In this document: positions 1,009 through 14,759 of the stretch, piece after piece
Numbering within the stretch: the stretch's first letter is position 1
Layout of the letters: the number at the start of each line of letters is the position of its first letter
From: Hyphomonadaceae bacterium
GTDB taxonomy: Bacteria > Pseudomonadota > Alphaproteobacteria > Caulobacterales > Maricaulaceae
DNA: 64,000 bases
Direction of reading: 5' to 3'
Assembly (NCBI GenBank): GCA_013001295.1
Contig: JABDMW010000037.1
Coordinates: 1 to 64,000, forward strand
Notes under the pieces: generated by a model
Database searches by the model: none
Told to the model about the DNA's origin: nothing
What the model saw: the letters and a program-made list of their open reading frames with translations, nothing else
Translations under genes and position numbers: made by a program

Positions 1009-2076
1009 ATGGAAACCGTTCCTTACCCAATTGGCGAAAACCATCCTGATCCAACTTTACTATTTTCCATAGATCGAAAACACCTTAAGTGGATGAATGG
1101 GGCCGCAGAATCCTGGTTACGCAAACCAAAAAGCGCTTTGATTGGGCAATGTATAAGTGAATTTGGACGGGGATTTGACGAATTAAAAACTCATATCAAC
1201 CAACTCGGCAATGAGGACAGCACATCTTACCGGGGCCATGACATAATCGTAAATGTACGAAGAATTGATTTTGTATGCTCTTTCAATATATACAATTCGG
1301 CTGCTGGAATTGTGGTGCAAATAAGCCCCAAGGAAATGGGAAGCGGATTTGTGCATGCGACCGGGCCGGATCAATCGGTATCTATGTTAGGCAGGATGCT
1401 GGCGCACGAGTTGAAAAACCCATTGGCGGGCATAAAAGGTGCTGCTCAACTTTTAGAAGTCGAGCTTGAAAATCCTGACGATTTGGAACTTACGGGATTA
1501 ATTTCAACGGAGGTTGACAGGATAGGACGACTTGCAGATCGAATGGAAAAATTCGGGCAAGCCGACTTTGATAATTATACCCATTTCAATGTGCACGAAG
1601 TGTTGCAAAAGACGTTTTTGATCTTTGTGAATCAAGGGCTGGAAGATATTGAATTTGTTGAACTATTCGATCCGTCCTTACCAGATGTGTTTGGCGACTC
1701 AGACGGGATCATGCAGGTTCTAATTAACTTGTTGGCCAACGCAGTCGATGCGATAAAAAGCGTCGAAACGCACGGCGTGATCAAAGTTGAGACAAGGTTT
1801 AGAACCGGAATACATCGTCTCGATCAAACGGGAAGAAAACATGCGCTTCCCGTTGAAGTTAGGATAATTGACAATGGACCCGGTATACCAGAGGCCTTGC
1901 GAGACCGTGTGTTCCAACCATTTGTAACAGGGAAATCCAATGGCCAGGGATTAGGACTCGCATTAATCTCGAAAATAATCGCCGACCATGGCGGATTGAT
2001 TGAGGTGAGTTCGGAACCGGGTCAAACAGAATTCTCTATTTTACTCCCGGTTGAGCCTCAAGCAGACAAAGGATGA
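1009..2076 (+). CDS. ntrB: Nitrogen regulation sensor histidine kinase NtrB
   Basis: Cytosolic histidine kinase/phosphatase that, with PII protein, sets NtrC phosphorylation according to nitrogen status. The 355-residue protein has a PAS-like N-terminal region (about 10-110), a DHp helix with the H-box AHELKNPLAGIKGAAQLL (phosphoacceptor His133), and a HATPase domain with N-box NLLANAVDAI, G1 IIDNGPGIP and G2 GQGLGLAL. There is no transmembrane segment, as expected for NtrB. It follows dusB by 2 bases and its stop sits 4 bases before ntrC, so the three genes are probably cotranscribed. Confidence 0.95.
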   Translation: METVPYPIGENHPDPTLLFSIDRKHLKWMNGAAESWLRKPKSALIGQCISEFGRGFDELKTHINQLGNEDSTSYRGHDIIVNVRRIDFVCSFNIYNSAAGIVVQISPKEMGSGFVHATGPDQSVSMLGRMLAHELKNPLAGIKGAAQLLEVELENPDDLELTGLISTEVDRIGRLADRMEKFGQADFDNYTHFNVHEVLQKTFLIFVNQGLEDIEFVELFDPSLPDVFGDSDGIMQVLINLLANAVDAIKSVETHGVIKVETRFRTGIHRLDQTGRKHALPVEVRIIDNGPGIPEALRDRVFQPFVTGKSNGQGLGLALISKIIADHGGLIEVSSEPGQTEFSILLPVEPQADKG

Positions 2077-2080
2077 CGAA

Positions 2081-3418
2081 ATGAAAAAAAATATTCTTGT
2101 CGCTGACGACGATGCCAGCATTCGGTTTGTGATCAGTAAATTTCTTTCAAGGGAAGGATTTAATGTCCGTGCGACAGACAATGCTCACACCCTGCAAAAA
2201 TGGGTGGAAAAAGGTGAGGGCGATGTCGTGCTCACAGATGTTCACATGGAACAGGAAGACATTTTTAATTTCATACCGGATTTGAAAAAAGCGCGCGCTG
2301 ATTTGCCTATTATCATCATGAGCGCAAACACGAGTGTGATGACCGCTCTCAAGTCCGGAAAATTTGGTGTATTTGAATATATCCCAAAGCCTTTCGATCT
2401 TTCAGAGGTCGCAAATACGATTGAACGGGCTCTTGAGATCGGTGCTGATTCGGACTTTGTCGTACCAGTCCCATCCACGCCAGATTTAAATACGATGATT
2501 GGGAAATCGGCTGCGATGCAACCTGTATTTCGCGGCATTTCAGACTTTATGTCGGGTGATATCCCGGTTTACATATCCGGTGACGTAGGGACCGGAAAGA
2601 ATTTGACAGCCAGTCTCATTCACAGCTCGGGCGCGCGAAAAGAGCAGCCTTTCTTATTTTTCGATGACATTCAATCTGATGCCGACCTTATCGAAAATGT
2701 CGGTCGTGGAGATTTGCTTATAGACCGGATTGAAGAGCTTTCAGCGAACAGACAGAATATTCTCTTGAGGGCACTGGAAAAAAATGAAAACCGGTCACTT
2801 GCAGAACAATTTCGCACGATTTCAACATCGAACTTGAGATTATCAGAATTGCTCGAGGCCAAAATGCTACGCCCTGAGTTGTTATCGCATCTGCGCGGCG
2901 GAACCATTCATCTCCCGCCTCTTCGTGAACGACAGCAAGATATCCTTGATCTCGCCGTCTTCTTCATCAACGAAAACCCGAGAATTAAATCGAAAAGAAA
3001 GTTTTCTGCAAAAGCATCAAAACTCCTAAATGCGAGTGATTGGGCAGGAAATGTCCGTGAACTCAAGAATGTCGTAAATTCAATTGTATTGCAATTTTCA
3101 GATCCGGTTATTTCGGAAAAAATTGTGAGTACAATTCTCAGCGAACATCAGGCCAAACGTGTTAAAAATGTTGAAGAAAGCGAATTTTCTGACAACTTAA
3201 GAAACGCGGGAAGAGCGCTATTACTTGAAGCATATCGATCAGATAGCGATGAACTGCAAGTGCCATACGCTCAAGCCATTGGCTGGATCGAAAAGCCTCT
3301 GATTGAGGAAGCATTAAAAATAACCAATGGAAACAATGTCAAGGCGGCGGAACTTCTAGGAATTCATCGCAACACGTTGCGCGCGAAGATTAAATCGTTG
3401 GGTATAACACGGTTCTAA
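2081..3418 (+). CDS. ntrC: NtrC-family response regulator without GAFTGA loop
   Basis: Partner regulator of NtrB. The ATG at 2081 has AAAGGA just upstream, overlapping the ntrB stop; an in-frame TTG at 2051 is unlikely. The 445 residues contain a receiver domain (phosphoacceptor Asp53 in LTDVHM), an AAA+ domain (Walker A GDVGTGKN, 167-174) and a C-terminal Fis-type HTH (NVKAAELLGIHRNTLRAKI). The AAA+ domain is abnormal: only about 42 residues separate the Walker A Lys173 from Asp215, against roughly 64 in enteric NtrC. The part carrying the sigma54-contacting GAFTGA loop is missing, and Walker B reads LLIDRIEEL where DE is expected. Rhodobacter capsulatus NtrC also lacks GAFTGA and works with sigma70. 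I infer a DNA-binding regulator that does not remodel sigma54 holoenzyme. Confidence 0.92.
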   Translation: MKKNILVADDDASIRFVISKFLSREGFNVRATDNAHTLQKWVEKGEGDVVLTDVHMEQEDIFNFIPDLKKARADLPIIIMSANTSVMTALKSGKFGVFEYIPKPFDLSEVANTIERALEIGADSDFVVPVPSTPDLNTMIGKSAAMQPVFRGISDFMSGDIPVYISGDVGTGKNLTASLIHSSGARKEQPFLFFDDIQSDADLIENVGRGDLLIDRIEELSANRQNILLRALEKNENRSLAEQFRTISTSNLRLSELLEAKMLRPELLSHLRGGTIHLPPLRERQQDILDLAVFFINENPRIKSKRKFSAKASKLLNASDWAGNVRELKNVVNSIVLQFSDPVISEKIVSTILSEHQAKRVKNVEESEFSDNLRNAGRALLLEAYRSDSDELQVPYAQAIGWIEKPLIEEALKITNGNNVKAAELLGIHRNTLRAKIKSLGITRF

Positions 3419-3488: not shown

Positions 3489-5732
3489 ATGGCTAAATCC
3501 GAAACAAGGCTGAGACCTACACCGCGATTGTTTAATTCTGCGGTTTTCGGCGTGTTTTTTACCGTCGCGATTTTTTTAACAGGGCTCGGCGCTTTTTTTG
3601 CTTTATCCGGAAATGAAGGACAGGCTTCCAAAGCGCTCAATATTCTCCGCTTAAATCTGGTGTTGATCGCCGGTCTCGGAATCTCTTTGTTTTTACGGCT
3701 TCGTCGCGTTTTGACGACGTCCGGTGATGGTCAAAGCGCCCCGCATCTTCATCGGCGTTTTGTTTTTATTTTTAGTCTTGGGGCGGTCGTCCCGGCGATT
3801 CTTGTTGGTTTGTTTTTTGCTGTCCTTATGACACGGAATTTCAATGACATATTTGGGCCAAATGTCCGGCAAACTTTGGAAACCAGCCGCGAATTGTCGA
3901 GTGCATACTTGAAAGACGAAATCGACGAGATTGGACAAGGCATTTACGACATCGCCGAAGATTTGAATCGCGAAGAATCTCTTCTCTCTAACCGCATTAC
4001 CTACAAGGTTTTCATGATCAATCAGGCGGTTTACCGGGAGTTTCCATCCGTTTATGTCATTGATGGTGAGGGTCGAATTCTGTCCCAAGCCGAAGGTCCT
4101 ACTGCACCGCCTTATGTGCTTCCAAGCCAGGAAACGTTTGATCTGGCTCTTGATGGGTCGGTAACGTTTACAACTCGCGCCGAAATTGATTTCTTAATGG
4201 CATTGTACAAGCTCGAGAATTACGAGAATGCGTATCTTTATACGGGGCGTTATATCAGGGCAGGCGTCCTCAATAACATTGAAAATGCCGAACAGGTTCA
4301 AGCAGCGCTAACAAATTATTCGGGCGATTTCAACGATTTGAACCGCGTGTTCTTTTTAACCTATATTGAAGTGGCACTGATCATCTTTTTTGCCGCGATT
4401 TGGTTGGGTTTGATGCTGGCCAATAGGATTGTCAGTCCGCTGGGTCAAATGGTCAATGCAGCTGAAAAGGTTCGATCTGGCGACCTAACGACCAGGGTGA
4501 ATGTGACGGGCGTTTGGGATGAAATTGGCGATTTGGCGAATGCCTTTAACCGAATGACCCGACAATTGAAAACACAAAGAGAAGATCTCGTGTTAGAACA
4601 TGATATTTCTGAGCAACGCCGGAAATTCTCTGAAGCTGTTTTATCCGGTGTCAGTGCGGGCGTTATTGGGCTGTCGCCGGAAGGTCGAATTACAGTTATA
4701 AATCGATCCGCAGAAAAGCTTCTCGGGATCAGGTCTGCGGATGCCGTCGGTATACCGCTGGCCAATATCTTACCCGAATTCACGTCGGCGTTTAAAACTG
4801 CAATTGATAGTATCGATCATGGGGCTGAAGATCAGATAAACCTGGATACATCTGCAGGGACGCGAAATCTCGATATTCGTGTTTCCGCGTACAAAGACGA
4901 ACGGACGGACACCGGCTGGGTGGTGACTTTTGATGATATGACCCGGCTTGTCGCCGCGCAGCGTCACTCGGCCTGGCGGGATGTGGCACGCCGAATCGCC
5001 CATGAAATCAAAAACCCGCTAACACCGATACAATTGTCGGCCGAACGATTGGAACGAAAATACAAAAATGAAATTACAACTGATCCAAATGTATTTACTC
5101 GCTGCACGCAAACGATCATACGACAAGTTGAAAATTTGGGACGCATGGTTGATGAGTTTTCAGCATTTGCGCGGATGCCGACTCCAGCACTAAATAATGT
5201 GAATTTAGAAATCTTCATGTCGGATATATTGTTTGCACAACGCGTAGCGTATCCAGATCTCAATTTTGTCTATGACAATCAGTCCGATAAAACCCTGGAA
5301 ATATTGTGCGACGAACGCCTGATAAGCCAAGCTCTTACAAACATTTATAAAAATGCAGGAGAGTCGATAACGCGCAGGATTGATCAGACCGGGCAAGACG
5401 AACAAGACGGACAAATTAAGACGATTGTCAAAGCGGAGGACGATCATATTCTGATTGACGTCATTGACAATGGATTGGGCTGGCCGATCGCAGATAAAGA
5501 GGCTTTGCTCGAGCCGTATATGACGACCCGAAAAGAGGGCACCGGTCTCGGAATGGCTATCGTTAAGCGGATCGCCGAAGATCATGGCGGCGCATTCATT
5601 CTGTTTGACAGGCCAGACGGAACGCAAGGAGCATGTGTACGACTGCAATTGCCAATTTCAGAACCATCAGGTTCATCTCAATCGAAAAATGAAAAACCAC
5701 GCTTAAAAGAACATGAGGGCGAAAACATATGA
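3489..5732 (+). CDS. ntrY: Membrane sensor histidine kinase NtrY
   Basis: Sensor kinase of the NtrYX system, linked in alphaproteobacteria to nitrogen metabolism, redox and envelope traits. The ATG at 3489 (MAKSETRL) has AGGAAG 7 bases upstream and is preferred to an in-frame TTG at 3432. The roughly 747-residue protein has three hydrophobic segments near the N-terminus, a periplasmic region, a further membrane segment (VALIIFFAAIWLGLML), a HAMP domain (NRIVSPLGQMVNAAEKV), a PAS domain, the H-box AHEIKNPLTPIQLSAERL (His505) and a HATPase domain (IDVIDNGLGWP, GTGLGMAIV). Its stop overlaps the ntrX start as ATGA, suggesting translational coupling. Confidence 0.95.
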   Translation: MAKSETRLRPTPRLFNSAVFGVFFTVAIFLTGLGAFFALSGNEGQASKALNILRLNLVLIAGLGISLFLRLRRVLTTSGDGQSAPHLHRRFVFIFSLGAVVPAILVGLFFAVLMTRNFNDIFGPNVRQTLETSRELSSAYLKDEIDEIGQGIYDIAEDLNREESLLSNRITYKVFMINQAVYREFPSVYVIDGEGRILSQAEGPTAPPYVLPSQETFDLALDGSVTFTTRAEIDFLMALYKLENYENAYLYTGRYIRAGVLNNIENAEQVQAALTNYSGDFNDLNRVFFLTYIEVALIIFFAAIWLGLMLANRIVSPLGQMVNAAEKVRSGDLTTRVNVTGVWDEIGDLANAFNRMTRQLKTQREDLVLEHDISEQRRKFSEAVLSGVSAGVIGLSPEGRITVINRSAEKLLGIRSADAVGIPLANILPEFTSAFKTAIDSIDHGAEDQINLDTSAGTRNLDIRVSAYKDERTDTGWVVTFDDMTRLVAAQRHSAWRDVARRIAHEIKNPLTPIQLSAERLERKYKNEITTDPNVFTRCTQTIIRQVENLGRMVDEFSAFARMPTPALNNVNLEIFMSDILFAQRVAYPDLNFVYDNQSDKTLEILCDERLISQALTNIYKNAGESITRRIDQTGQDEQDGQIKTIVKAEDDHILIDVIDNGLGWPIADKEALLEPYMTTRKEGTGLGMAIVKRIAEDHGGAFILFDRPDGTQGACVRLQLPISEPSGSSQSKNEKPRLKEHEGENI

Positions 5733-7120
5733 GTTATGAAATTCTAGTCGTTGAGGATGAAGACGACATTCGCAGCCTGATTTCAGGAATATTGTCGGAT
5801 GAGGGATATCATATCCGCGAGGCGGGCAATAGCGAAGAGGCGTTGCAGAAATTCAAATTGAGGAAGCCTTCGCTTGTTATACTCGATGTTTGGCTCAAAG
5901 GTTCAGAGTTGGACGGTATTGAGTTAATGGACGTTTTGAAGGACATGGATGCAGACATTCCTGTAATCATCATTAGCGGGCACGGAACCGTAGAAACTGC
6001 TGTGTCGGCAATCCGGAAGGGCGCCTACGATTATATCGTAAAGCCATTCAAGAGCGATAAATTGGTCATCACAGCACAAAGAGCTTTGGAGACGGTCAAA
6101 CTTAAGCAGGAAAATGCGGAATTGCGCGGTCGTGCGACATCTGACGACACCTTGATCGGCAGCTCTCAGGTCATAATGCAGATTCGCCAAAAAATTGATC
6201 GCATTGCGCCGACTAACAGTCGGATTTTAATATCAGGACCATCCGGATCGGGAAAAGAATTAATGGCACGGCTGATCCACCAAGCTTCAAATCGATCAGA
6301 TGGCCCGTTCAAAGCTGTGAATGCAGCGTCGATGGTCCCGGAGCGTGTGGAGGAAGAACTCTTTGGGGTTGAAGACCATACAACAAACTTGACAAACACT
6401 GGATTGCTTGAGCGTGCCCATTTTGGAACACTTTACATTGATGAAGTCGCCGACATGCCGTTGGAGACACAAAGCAAACTTCTTCGGTTGTTGGTGGATC
6501 AAAGGTTTACCCGCATTGGAGGAGAGGATGATATTCAAGTTGACGTCCGGATTATTACGTCGACGTCTCGGGATCTGGAAAGAGAAACAAAACTGGGTCG
6601 TTTTAGAGAAGACTTATATCATCGATTGAACGTCATGCCGTTGGTTGCGCCATCGCTCATGGAACGGCGCGAAGATATCCCTGAGCTCGTGGAGCACTTT
6701 ATTGAACGCCTATCCGGGTCAACCGGCCTGCCCGCACGTAGTATCGGCGACGATGCCATGGCGGCTCTGCAAGCCCATGACTGGCCTGGAAATGTCCGGC
6801 AATTGCGCAACAATGTAGAACGTCTATTAATCTTGGCTTCGGGAGAACCTGCGCAGCCTATAACATTAGAGTCGCTTCCTGATGAAGTCTCAATACTTCG
6901 CGGAAATGAAGGCATACAAACCAATGAAAAAACCATATCAATGCCATTGCGAAATGCGAGGGAGCATTTCGAGAGAGAGTATTTGCAGACCCAAATCGAA
7001 CGATTTGGCGGCAATATATCGCGGACTGCAAATTTCGTCGGCATGGAAAGATCAGCATTGCATCGGAAGTTAAAATCGTTAGGAATTTCATCTAGTTCGG
7101 GGGGATCTGATGGTTCTTAG
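5729..7120 (+). CDS. ntrX: Response regulator NtrX
   Basis: Partner regulator of NtrY. The 463 residues comprise a receiver domain (Asp53 in VILDVWL), an AAA+ domain with intact Walker A GPSGSGKE (170-177) and Walker B LYIDEVADM (D238-E239), and a Fis-type HTH at the C-terminus (NISRTANFVGMERSALHRKL). The loop that holds GAFTGA in true sigma54 activators is replaced by a non-matching stretch after EEELFG (VEDHTTNLTNTGLL). This is usual for alphaproteobacterial NtrX. Unlike the neighbouring NtrC, the ATPase core here looks intact. The start overlaps the ntrY stop; trkA begins 20 bases downstream. Confidence 0.95.
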   Translation: MSYEILVVEDEDDIRSLISGILSDEGYHIREAGNSEEALQKFKLRKPSLVILDVWLKGSELDGIELMDVLKDMDADIPVIIISGHGTVETAVSAIRKGAYDYIVKPFKSDKLVITAQRALETVKLKQENAELRGRATSDDTLIGSSQVIMQIRQKIDRIAPTNSRILISGPSGSGKELMARLIHQASNRSDGPFKAVNAASMVPERVEEELFGVEDHTTNLTNTGLLERAHFGTLYIDEVADMPLETQSKLLRLLVDQRFTRIGGEDDIQVDVRIITSTSRDLERETKLGRFREDLYHRLNVMPLVAPSLMERREDIPELVEHFIERLSGSTGLPARSIGDDAMAALQAHDWPGNVRQLRNNVERLLILASGEPAQPITLESLPDEVSILRGNEGIQTNEKTISMPLRNAREHFEREYLQTQIERFGGNISRTANFVGMERSALHRKLKSLGISSSSGGSDGS

Positions 7121-13355: not shown

Positions 13356-14021
13356 TTATTCGTGAATAGCGTCCAGAGCGGCCGCAGTCGCCGGTATTCC
13401 TATTGCACAGGAAATAAGGCTTAACCCGAGAAGCGCTTTAAATTCAACCGCATTCCAACCGCTTACCACATAAGAGTCGGCGGCACTCGTTCCAAAAATG
13501 ATCAGGGGCACAAAGAGTGGAATCGCGAGAAGAATAATCAACATGCTTCCACTTTTATTGCCAACCAGACATGCACCACAAAAACTACCAAGAATGATGA
13601 GAGCGGGACTCGCTAACAGAATTGCGAATAAAAGCCCCGCATATGTTGAGAAAGACAAGCCGAGTAAAAGTGAAACCACGGGTAAAACGATCAAGAGAGG
13701 CAAGACAATCGACATCCAGTGTGCGGTGGCTTTAGCTGTGACATATGTTGACCCCGGCATCCCCGAAATTTTCAACAGATCGAGACTGCCGTCCTGATAA
13801 TCGTCTCGAAACAGGCCCTCAAAAGATAAGAGAAGTGCGAAAATAACGGCCAGCCAGATCAAGGCCGGGGCAAAACGTCCCAATGAGTCGTTATCACCGC
13901 CCATCGCAATCCCGCTCAACGCAATAAAAATAACAAAAAACAAAACGCTTTGTAGCCAAATTGTCTTTGATCGTATTGCCAGACGTAAATCCCGCCAGAT
14001 CAGAACGGAGAACCTATCCAT
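13356..14021 (-). CDS. ccmB: Heme exporter ABC permease CcmB
   Basis: Membrane subunit of the CcmAB transporter, whose ATP hydrolysis releases heme-loaded CcmE. I place the start at ATG 14021 (MDRFSVLIWRDLRLAIR), which has GGGAGG 7 bases upstream and gives 221 residues, the usual CcmB length. A longer in-frame start at 14114 would sit far inside ccmA. Six hydrophobic segments are visible. The start overlaps the end of ccmA by 8 bases. Confidence 0.95.
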   Translation of the reverse strand: MDRFSVLIWRDLRLAIRSKTIWLQSVLFFVIFIALSGIAMGGDNDSLGRFAPALIWLAVIFALLLSFEGLFRDDYQDGSLDLLKISGMPGSTYVTAKATAHWMSIVLPLLIVLPVVSLLLGLSFSTYAGLLFAILLASPALIILGSFCGACLVGNKSGSMLIILLAIPLFVPLIIFGTSAADSYVVSGWNAVEFKALLGLSLISCAIGIPATAAALDAIHE

Positions 14022-14646
14022 GGATATGCCTCCCAAGATCCATGACTTGAGCATTGTTGCCAATTTTAAATGGAATAGTGTGCGTCGCGATAAAAGCGAC
14101 GCCGCCATTGGCAATATGCGCCGACGTCAGATCCGTAATCAGATCTCGACCGGCTTCATCGAGAGGTGCTGCGAGTTCATCCAAAAACCAGATATTTGCG
14201 TCCTGCAGCAACAGCCGTGCCAGGGCAACCCGGCGTGATTGTCCTGCAGACAGGTTTTTGGCTTTGAGGTCACGCAGGCGCCAGATGTCGACACGTTGCA
14301 TGGTTTTTTCTAAATCGACTGGTGTCTGATAAATCGAGCCCCAAAATTCCAAATTTTCTAAAACGGTAAGATCGTTTTTATGACTGTCCTGATGTCCAAG
14401 ATAGGCAATGGCGGTGGCATTTCCGGAATAGATTATAGTTCCGCTATCTTGTTTTAAGAGGCCAGCCAAACACCGCAAAAGTGATGTTTTTCCCGATCCA
14501 TTACTGCCGGTTATCCAAATCACGTCGCCAGCATTGGCATTGAATGACGTTCCATCAAACAGCAATTTCGAACCGCGCTTTATTCGAAGATCGGTCACTT
14601 TCAAAGAATGCTGTTCTGGACTGTTGTTAATGACGTTGGGCTCCAT
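14014..14646 (-). CDS. ccmA: Heme exporter ATP-binding protein CcmA
   Basis: ATPase of the CcmABCD complex. The start at 14646 (MEPNVINNSPEQHSLKV) gives 210 residues, close to the family norm; an upstream ATG at 14748 would add an unconserved 34-residue leader. It shows Walker A GSNGSGKTSLLR, signature NLSAGQSRRVALARLLL and Walker B IWFLDELAAPLD. First gene of the ccmABCD-mazG transcript, divergent from ccmE; the 113 bases between them should hold both promoters. Confidence 0.93.
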   Translation of the reverse strand: MEPNVINNSPEQHSLKVTDLRIKRGSKLLFDGTSFNANAGDVIWITGSNGSGKTSLLRCLAGLLKQDSGTIIYSGNATAIAYLGHQDSHKNDLTVLENLEFWGSIYQTPVDLEKTMQRVDIWRLRDLKAKNLSAGQSRRVALARLLLQDANIWFLDELAAPLDEAGRDLITDLTSAHIANGGVAFIATHTIPFKIGNNAQVMDLGRHIHG

Positions 14647-14759
14647 TGCCTGTTTCCCGGTTTCGTAGGAATTAATCCACTTCGATATAGCGGAATATAT
14701 GCTTCGGTGCGCTAAATTGGCGCGTTTACTATCATGCTGATTTAGCACAGGCTAGTCCA

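Follow-up and report, generated by a model that had tools for sequence, protein, structure and literature searches.

The nearest studied relative of the protein described here is the NtrC of Caulobacter crescentus. This protein is reported to be without the GAFTGA motif, through a deletion of 8 residues, and to be active at sigma-70 promoters (PMC10274813). Its phosphorylation site is needed on ammonium, and so are K178 and D235, which lie 57 residues apart and whose mutants failed to grow (PMC10274813). ChIP-seq places glnBA, ntrB, and the glnK-transporter operon among its direct targets, and its motif is described as akin to the sites of Fis and of Escherichia coli NtrC (PMC10274813). Rhodobacter capsulatus NtrC has no GAFTGA loop, activates the housekeeping polymerase, and is reported to need ATP binding and not hydrolysis (PMC10274813). 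GAFTGA is changed or deleted in TyrR, DhaR, HupR, and VpsR, and the first three are reported to be sigma-70 dependent (PMC3162934).

The catalytic Glu of the Walker B motif has been changed in the laboratory. PspF E108Q binds ATP about 30-fold more tightly, hydrolyzes it at less than 1%, and forms hexamers without nucleotide (PMC4132715). NtrC1 E239A is a Walker B mutant at the catalytic Glu (PMC7175178). The text of PMC4132715 has no E108R.

The absence of GAFTGA is already published for Caulobacter. What is new here is the further decay of NtrC along the tree, that is, an ordered decay inside one family and an Arg that recurs at the catalytic place. A search of titles and abstract openings, covering few subscription journals, found no report of a natural Glu-to-Arg change in the NtrC Walker B motif; with the same coverage of journals, it found no paper on both Robiginitomaculum and NtrC.

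The ntr locus and its host

The window is the whole stretch of DNA that was analyzed, with a length of 64,000 nucleotides. The dusB-ntrB-ntrC-ntrY-ntrX cluster opens a contig of 72 kb, in a host genome of 3.49 Mb that is 99.84% complete. Bases 1 to 127 of the window repeat the final 127 bases of contig C50 (L246). Therefore, the contig break lies inside dusB. C50 holds the promoter of the dusB-ntrBC operon and a divergent ispDF-like gene. The nearest named relative is Robiginitomaculum sp. NORP222 (L068), with 53% identity, and we take the window to come from Robiginitomaculum or from a sister genus within the Caulobacterales. Maricaulaceae is the family name for these genera.

The start of ntrC was set by comparison with relatives, which favored the ATG at 2081 over the TTG at 2051 of the mechanical open reading frame. 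The product is an NtrC orthologue: it has a receiver, an AAA+ domain, a Fis-type helix-turn-helix (HTH), and the phospho-acceptor Asp, and its gene lies in the dusB-ntrB-ntrC-ntrY-ntrX order (Table 1). Asp10, Asp11, Asp53, Ser81, and Lys103 of the receiver are invariant in a 19-row alignment (A1). In Pfam, Sigma54_activ_2 spans the core and Sigma54_activat matches in two pieces only.

AlphaFold predicts with confidence that the AAA+ core folds, with block means of pLDDT of 87 to 95 over residues 161 to 290 and a whole-chain mean of 84.2. The solved structures that match best are those of NtrX from Brucella and of NtrC1 and NtrC4 from Aquifex. The full-length rmsd to the solved structures is 18 to 21, because the domains are placed differently; the AAA+ domains alone give a target TM of about 0.7. 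The paralogous NtrX has no GAFTGA and a Lys-Asp spacing of 62, and its Walker B Asp-Glu and both arginine fingers are intact. Caulobacter NtrX is likewise reported to be without GAFTGA (PMC10274813).

Table 1. Positions in the window of ntrC, its parts, and two neighboring genes
Feature	Position	Strand	Detail
ntrB, cognate sensor kinase	1009..2076	+	HisKA and HATPase_c domains
ntrC	2081..3418	+	445 aa: receiver, shortened AAA+, lid, Fis-type HTH
Receiver domain	2093..2422	+	PF00072, residues 5-114, E 2.8e-21
Phospho-acceptor Asp53	2237-2239	+	in receiver domain
AAA+ core without sigma-54 contact loop	2495..2923	+	PF14532, residues 140-281
Walker A GDVGTGK	2579..2599	+	residues 167-173, Lys173 retained
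Site of 23-residue deletion, Ser199/Asp200	2675..2680	+	alignment with E. coli NtrC and relatives
Walker B LLIDR	2714..2728	+	Asp215 at 2723-2725, Arg216 at 2726-2728 (CGG)
Arginine-finger segment RPELLSH	2870..2890	+	Arg264 (first finger) retained, second is His270
AAA+ lid domain	2924..3160	+	PF25601, residues 282-360
Fis-type HTH	3287..3394	+	PF02954, residues 403-438, E 2.9e-12
ntrX, paralogous regulator	5729..7120	+	rate control for NtrC comparison

The missing loop and the motor residues

We aligned the window NtrC with E. coli K-12 NtrC (NC_000913), 80 named loci, and 43 further relatives. An earlier note on this DNA had put Walker B Asp215 about 42 residues after Walker A Lys173, roughly 22 fewer than in enteric NtrC. 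Translation and alignment gave 42 residues, and we counted 23 missing relative to the 65 of E. coli. The alignment puts the gap between Ser199 and Asp200, about 2677/2678, and the lost stretch is the GAFTGA region, as the note had said. We found no displaced copy of the motif, since no string of the form GA[FYLM][TS][GN][AS] occurs anywhere in the protein. The Walker B segment reads LLIDRIEEL, and Arg216, next to Asp215, does stand in the place of the catalytic Glu. The second arginine finger, on which the note was silent, is a His. The likeness that it drew to the loop-less NtrC of R. capsulatus is apt, and Caulobacter NtrC can be added (PMC10274813).

E. coli NtrC shares its spacing of 65 with 68 of the 80 named loci. 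All 68 have the Walker A Lys, the Asp-Glu pair, and two arginine fingers, and 65 match a GAFTGA-like string (the others are L073, L128, and L129). Of the features of a sigma-54 activator, the window NtrC has the Walker A GxxxxGK; we found in it no GAFTGA, Walker B Asp-Glu, or pair of arginine fingers, and no clear sigma-54 promoters at its putative target operons. Its loop is deleted and its domain order is preserved, which is the pattern of the GAFTGA-less NtrC type.

The 12 other NtrC proteins of the genus are 49 to 56% identical to the window's. The ntrC frame is open in all 13, and every one of these proteins keeps Lys at Walker A and the first of the two arginine fingers. Asp at Walker B is present in 12, and the catalytic Glu is present in none, being Arg in 12 and His in 1. 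The second finger is Arg in 2 and His in 11, and the sensor II Arg is kept in 12. The Lys-Asp spacing is 42 in 12 of the 13 and 41 in the other. The Walker B Arg and the short spacing are shared by nearly all the genus proteins and are therefore not chance or a sequencing slip.

From the Walker B sequence, we infer that the window NtrC probably does not hydrolyze ATP, and the loss of the second finger in 11 of 13 genus members strengthens this inference. Our preferred reading is that of a true NtrC that no longer serves as a sigma-54 motor: phosphorylation would control its action at sigma-70 promoters, and its AAA+ domain would bind ATP without hydrolyzing it. We hold this to be probable, with considerable room for doubt.

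Two acidic residues close to the catalytic position, Glu218 and Glu219, might in principle contribute to hydrolysis, which would count against the preferred reading. The protein would then work like Caulobacter NtrC, whose Walker residues are reported to be needed (PMC10274813). Caulobacter NtrC thus seems to depend on its ATPase activity, and the authors of that work would not expect an ATPase-dead NtrC in the same order. Asp215 and Glu219 are also invariant among 12 genus members. However, the second arginine finger is gone as well in most of the genus, and the milder E108Q change leaves PspF with less than 1% of its ATPase activity (PMC4132715). Hydrolysis through Glu218 or Glu219 therefore seems to us very unlikely.

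A graded series among relatives

A GAFTGA-like string was absent from all 44 NtrC proteins sampled from the Caulobacterales, the window's included. The NtrC states of these relatives form a graded series, in which the ATPase residues are kept, the Glu is lost, the Walker A is lost, or ntrBC itself is lost. In group A, which comprises seven genomes from the window's family (G014, G018, G021, G024, G028, G030, and G031), the spacing of 42 is accompanied by Lys, Asp, Glu, and two fingers, all intact. Group B, seven more genomes (G017, G022, G023, G025, G026, G027, and G034), has no Asp-Glu pair, and in six of them the Walker A Lys is Arg. We found no ntrB between dusB and ntrC in G019 (L058) and G035 (L052). 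In these two genomes ntrC begins where dusB ends, and the usual kinase is missing at the locus.

In 13 relatives from several separate lineages, dusB is followed directly by ntrYX and ntrBC is gone from the locus, as judged from the ntr locus and the best matches at the NtrX level, so that a strongly decayed copy elsewhere could escape. These are G015, G016, G020, and G036 of the family, G038, G042, and G058 of f3, and six f5 genomes. The 13 loci are L061-L066, L204, L207-L211, and L216. G009 (its contig holds ntrY and ntrX only), G029 (its contig begins within ntrY), G033 (a non-ntr stretch), and G032 were left out of the counts.

Family f4 has Gly at the Glu position in four proteins, Cys in one, and Ser in one, and the Asp is also lost with the Ser. 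The Gly proteins, f4 loci L041-L044 and the named locus L113, retain Lys and Asp. The second finger of L043 is Cys; the Cys at the Glu place is in L039 and the Ser in L051. The f4 Gly had suggested that C. crescentus might be without the Walker B Glu, and this idea was dropped: L101 (Caulobacteraceae) and L115 (Phenylobacterium) have a spacing of 57 with the Asp-Glu intact.

A tree of DusB, NtrY, and NtrX from 55 genomes, built by a quick method, places the genus in one clade with 100% SH-aLRT, with the group A genomes just outside it. On this tree, ntrC presence changes at least four times and the Asp-Glu pair at least five times. Arg versus not-Arg at the catalytic place changes at least four times. 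Glu to Arg takes two base changes, and Arg is found in three places on the tree: the genus, six of the seven group B genomes, and G019. Because it recurs despite two base changes and is invariant in the genus except for one His, with silent codon changes, Arg216 may have been re-purposed. It would then hold the phosphates of ATP in cis, standing in for the trans arginine finger that was lost, and would lock the AAA+ ring in an ATP-bound state that assembles only upon phosphorylation. We offer this as a speculation that is doubtful at present. Two genus members, G005 and G012, retain the second finger together with Arg216, which argues against it. Group B and G019 have lost Asp as well as Glu at Walker B, and six of seven group B genomes have also lost the Walker A Lys; the Arg may therefore mean something else there.

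A wider class sample was non-random: 240 genomes were searched, and 50 loci were read, the 30 best matches and 20 lower ones picked by eye. In this sample, shortened NtrC proteins without GAFTGA and with intact Asp-Glu were found in f27 (two genomes) and f31 (spacing 60 and 63). The f27 proteins (L306 and L307) have a spacing of 47 and both fingers intact, and our guess is that f27 is Rhodobacteraceae. Two more odd Walker B motifs were seen at L317 and L320.

NtrC-like boxes at putative targets

We looked for binding sites upstream of the PII genes in 52 loci, which are part of the matches listed. An enteric-style GCAC-N7-GTGC box gave one perfect site, at glnBA of the window genome, that was unconserved in the genus, and it was dropped. 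The element TGATGAAwTTTTGTGCA was spotted by eye in these upstreams and adopted for the boxes. TGTGCA/TGCACA occurs 26 times in 17 genus glnB/glnK upstreams, at least once in 16 of them, against 3.3 in dinucleotide shuffles (maximum of 8 in 300), a figure that overstates the significance because the hexamer was chosen after viewing the promoters and the species are related. The counts are 6 in 7 upstreams of group A (1.0 expected), 1 in 7 of group B (0.9 expected), 3 in 12 of genomes without ntrC (1.0 expected), and 2 in 6 of f3 and f4 genomes with ntrC (0.8 expected).

The 17-bp pattern TGRTGAAWTTTTGTGCA was written from the same promoters of related species on which it was scored. When up to 2 mismatches are allowed, it is found in 12 of 17 genus glnB/glnK upstreams and 1 of 7 in group A. 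At this threshold it was found in 0/7 upstreams of group B and 0/12 of ntrC-less genomes, not in G019 or G035, and in none of the 2 upstreams of f3 with ntrC or the 5 of f4 (best, 3 mismatches). Within the genus, it is unmatched at glnBA of G001, G010, and G013, at glnK-amtB of G013, and at glnK-amtB of the window genome, where the best place, with 3 mismatches, lies elsewhere and a TGTGCA half-site is present. The box is thus weak at some promoters, which counts against the preferred reading. The glnK-amtB upstreams L162, L172, L227, L229, L232, and L235 have, about 30 bases past the box, a second repeat that resembles TTTkGGCAA, and several of these have a CTCGAC-like element further down, perhaps a promoter.

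Across the window genome, TGRTGAAWTTTTGTGCA has 67 places with at most 3 mismatches, compared with 20 for a reversed control. Three places have 1 mismatch, and they include glnBA, where the upstream sequence also carries the GCAC-N7-GTGC palindrome, and the dusB-ntrBC promoter on C50. The dusB site played no part in writing the pattern. Upstream of dusB, the element is present with 1 mismatch to TGRTGAAWTTTTGTGCA in 11/11 other genus members with upstream DNA. A pattern refitted to these sites is perfect by construction in 12/12 genus members, and with at most 2 mismatches it is found in 7/7 of group A. It was found in 0/9 ntrBC-less relatives, 0/2 for G019 and G035, and 0/1 f3 genome with NtrC. 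These dusB counts omit G010, G017, G041, G042, G045, G050, and G053, where the start was not found, and G020, G036, and G044, where the upstream was too short. A scan from mechanical starts gave no match to the dusB element in the f2 genomes G041, G045, and G053. Counted from the dusB start used in most genus members, the first base of the box lies 45 bases upstream, and we guess that this position would suit autorepression.

Sigma-54 signals

The host genome carries rpoN. Exact sigma-54 sites number 8 in this genome (3 in the control), with none at glnBA or glnK-amtB. The 17 genus upstreams hold 1 site when up to 1 mismatch is allowed, against 0.22 expected, and 2 sites when up to 2 mismatches are allowed, against 2.4 expected. 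The signal at the genus glnBA and glnK-amtB promoters is near chance, with no clear sigma-54 site pattern. Two other enhancer-binding proteins of the genome keep a G[AS]FTGA loop. Because rpoN is present along with these two regulators, with GAFTGA or GSFTGA, sigma-54 has other possible users. One exact site lies on the opposite strand about 140 bases before a pspF-like gene, so called by its length and GAFTGA. Within the window, an exact consensus at 14207-14222 on the minus strand is inside an ABC-transporter-like frame (14014-14748) and is probably there by chance.

If NtrC still activated the sigma-54 polymerase through another contact, the retention of rpoN would fit. HTH mutants of Caulobacter NtrC are also reported to raise, unexpectedly, some sigma-54-dependent flagellar genes (PMC12421884). 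However, the loop is deleted, motor residues are missing, and the sites at the putative targets are near chance, and we consider such a contact extremely improbable.

Constraint on the AAA+ domain

Pairwise domain identities were compared at a matched NtrX identity of 0.70 to 0.82 (Table 2). The AAA+ domain is the most conserved of the receiver, HTH, and AAA+ in the named set and the least conserved in the window genus. Its identity drops from above that of the receiver to far below it, most where catalytic residues are missing. The f2 proteins, with Asp-Glu intact, are already at 0.70 for the AAA+ domain versus 0.85 for the receiver, so loop loss alone explains part of the drop. Given f2, the AAA+ fall does not come from catalytic loss alone, and this weighs against the preferred reading.

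Table 2. Identity of NtrC domains in pairs matched for NtrX identity
Set	Pairs	AAA+	Receiver	HTH	Lid
Named, mostly GAFTGA-bearing	170	0.90	0.84		
f3	3	0.81	0.77		
Group A	15	0.75	0.76		
f2, Asp-Glu intact	7	0.70	0.85		
Window genus	39	0.51	0.71	0.69	0.38
f4	2	0.50	0.80		
Group B	16	0.38	0.63		

Eight pairs were tried for dN/dS, and the NtrC AAA+ value was computable in four. The pair with the lowest dS, G002-G007, gave about 0.14 for the NtrC AAA+ (dS 1.09) versus 0.02 for the NtrX AAA+ (dS 2.0). The other NtrC AAA+ pairs gave 0.08 to 0.11 at dS 2.3 to 3.3, which is too saturated to rely on. Many receiver and HTH residues are invariant in 12 genus members. Arg216 is conserved in the genus through the varying codons CGG, CGT, and CGC. 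The NtrC of the genus is still under purifying selection, and it is probably not junk, because Arg216 is kept amid silent codon change and the boxes are conserved.

NtrC and NtrB change much faster than NtrX, and in 13 relatives ntrBC has disappeared from between dusB and ntrYX. Both the fast evolution and these repeated losses are as compatible with decay as with re-tooling. If the gene were decaying, constraint on it would be relaxed and it would be heading for the loss already seen for ntrBC in several lineages related to this one. We find this rather improbable, because the frame is open in every genus member, the boxes are kept, and the invariant receiver and HTH residues and the AAA+ dN/dS of the one pair speak for constraint.

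The earlier note suggested that the protein is a plain DNA-binding regulator. The AAA+ domain would then be a dead scaffold, with neither binding nor use of ATP. The fast divergence of the AAA+ domain and lid in the genus fits this reading. So does group B, which keeps the gene despite the loss of the Walker A Lys in 6/7 and in which one member is predicted by AlphaFold (mean pLDDT 82.1) to have an AAA+-like fold, with a string of elements resembling that of the window protein. However, the ATP-site residues that we checked stay conserved in the genus (Lys and first finger 13/13, sensor II Arg 12/13), which would be odd for a scaffold. The loss of the loop and of the Glu was upheld, and the label of plain DNA binding is probably too strong; the dead scaffold is a possibility that we take seriously and still judge unlikely. 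These residues persist in an AAA+ domain that otherwise diverges fast, so the protein may still bind ATP and perhaps form oligomers in an ATP-dependent way.

Proposed role and comparison with known systems

We suggest that the preferred reading, of a true NtrC in a Robiginitomaculum-like Caulobacterales bacterium that is no more a sigma-54 motor, would work as follows. NtrB would phosphorylate Asp53 of NtrC. NtrC would bind the boxes, which are known as sequence, at glnBA and dusB-ntrBC, and in most genus members it would also bind a box at glnK-amtB. It would act on the sigma-70-type RNA polymerase as an activator or a repressor, by analogy with Caulobacter NtrC. Judging from its residues, the AAA+ domain would most likely serve as an ATP-binding, non-hydrolyzing oligomerization module. 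An ATP-locked oligomer is plausible because PspF E108Q is reported to bind ATP tightly, hexamerize, and barely hydrolyze it (PMC4132715). Glu to Arg is a harsher change than E108Q and may act differently.

One order contains natural forms of NtrC that carry all the ATPase residues, forms that carry just those for binding, and forms that carry neither kind, besides genomes that lack ntrBC altogether; the DNA boxes are partly still present across this series. The series makes the role of an AAA+ domain without sigma-54 directly testable. It also gives an ordered case in which a conserved regulator is stripped of its motor domain. The window NtrC, which seems to have kept control over the usual nitrogen genes, marks one step on the way from a molecular motor to an ordinary gene switch.

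The window NtrC comes from the same order as C. crescentus NtrC and, like it, has no GAFTGA, and candidate boxes lie at the same kinds of target. Unlike the C. crescentus protein as published, it is without 23 residues, the catalytic Glu, and the second finger. R. capsulatus NtrC, known here by description, is loop-less like the window NtrC. TyrR, DhaR, HupR, and VpsR share with it an architecture without the sigma-54 contact, and their regulons differ. PspF E108Q and NtrC1 E239A change the same Glu that the window NtrC has lost, but these changes are engineered, and PspF has its loop intact and is directed to sigma-54.
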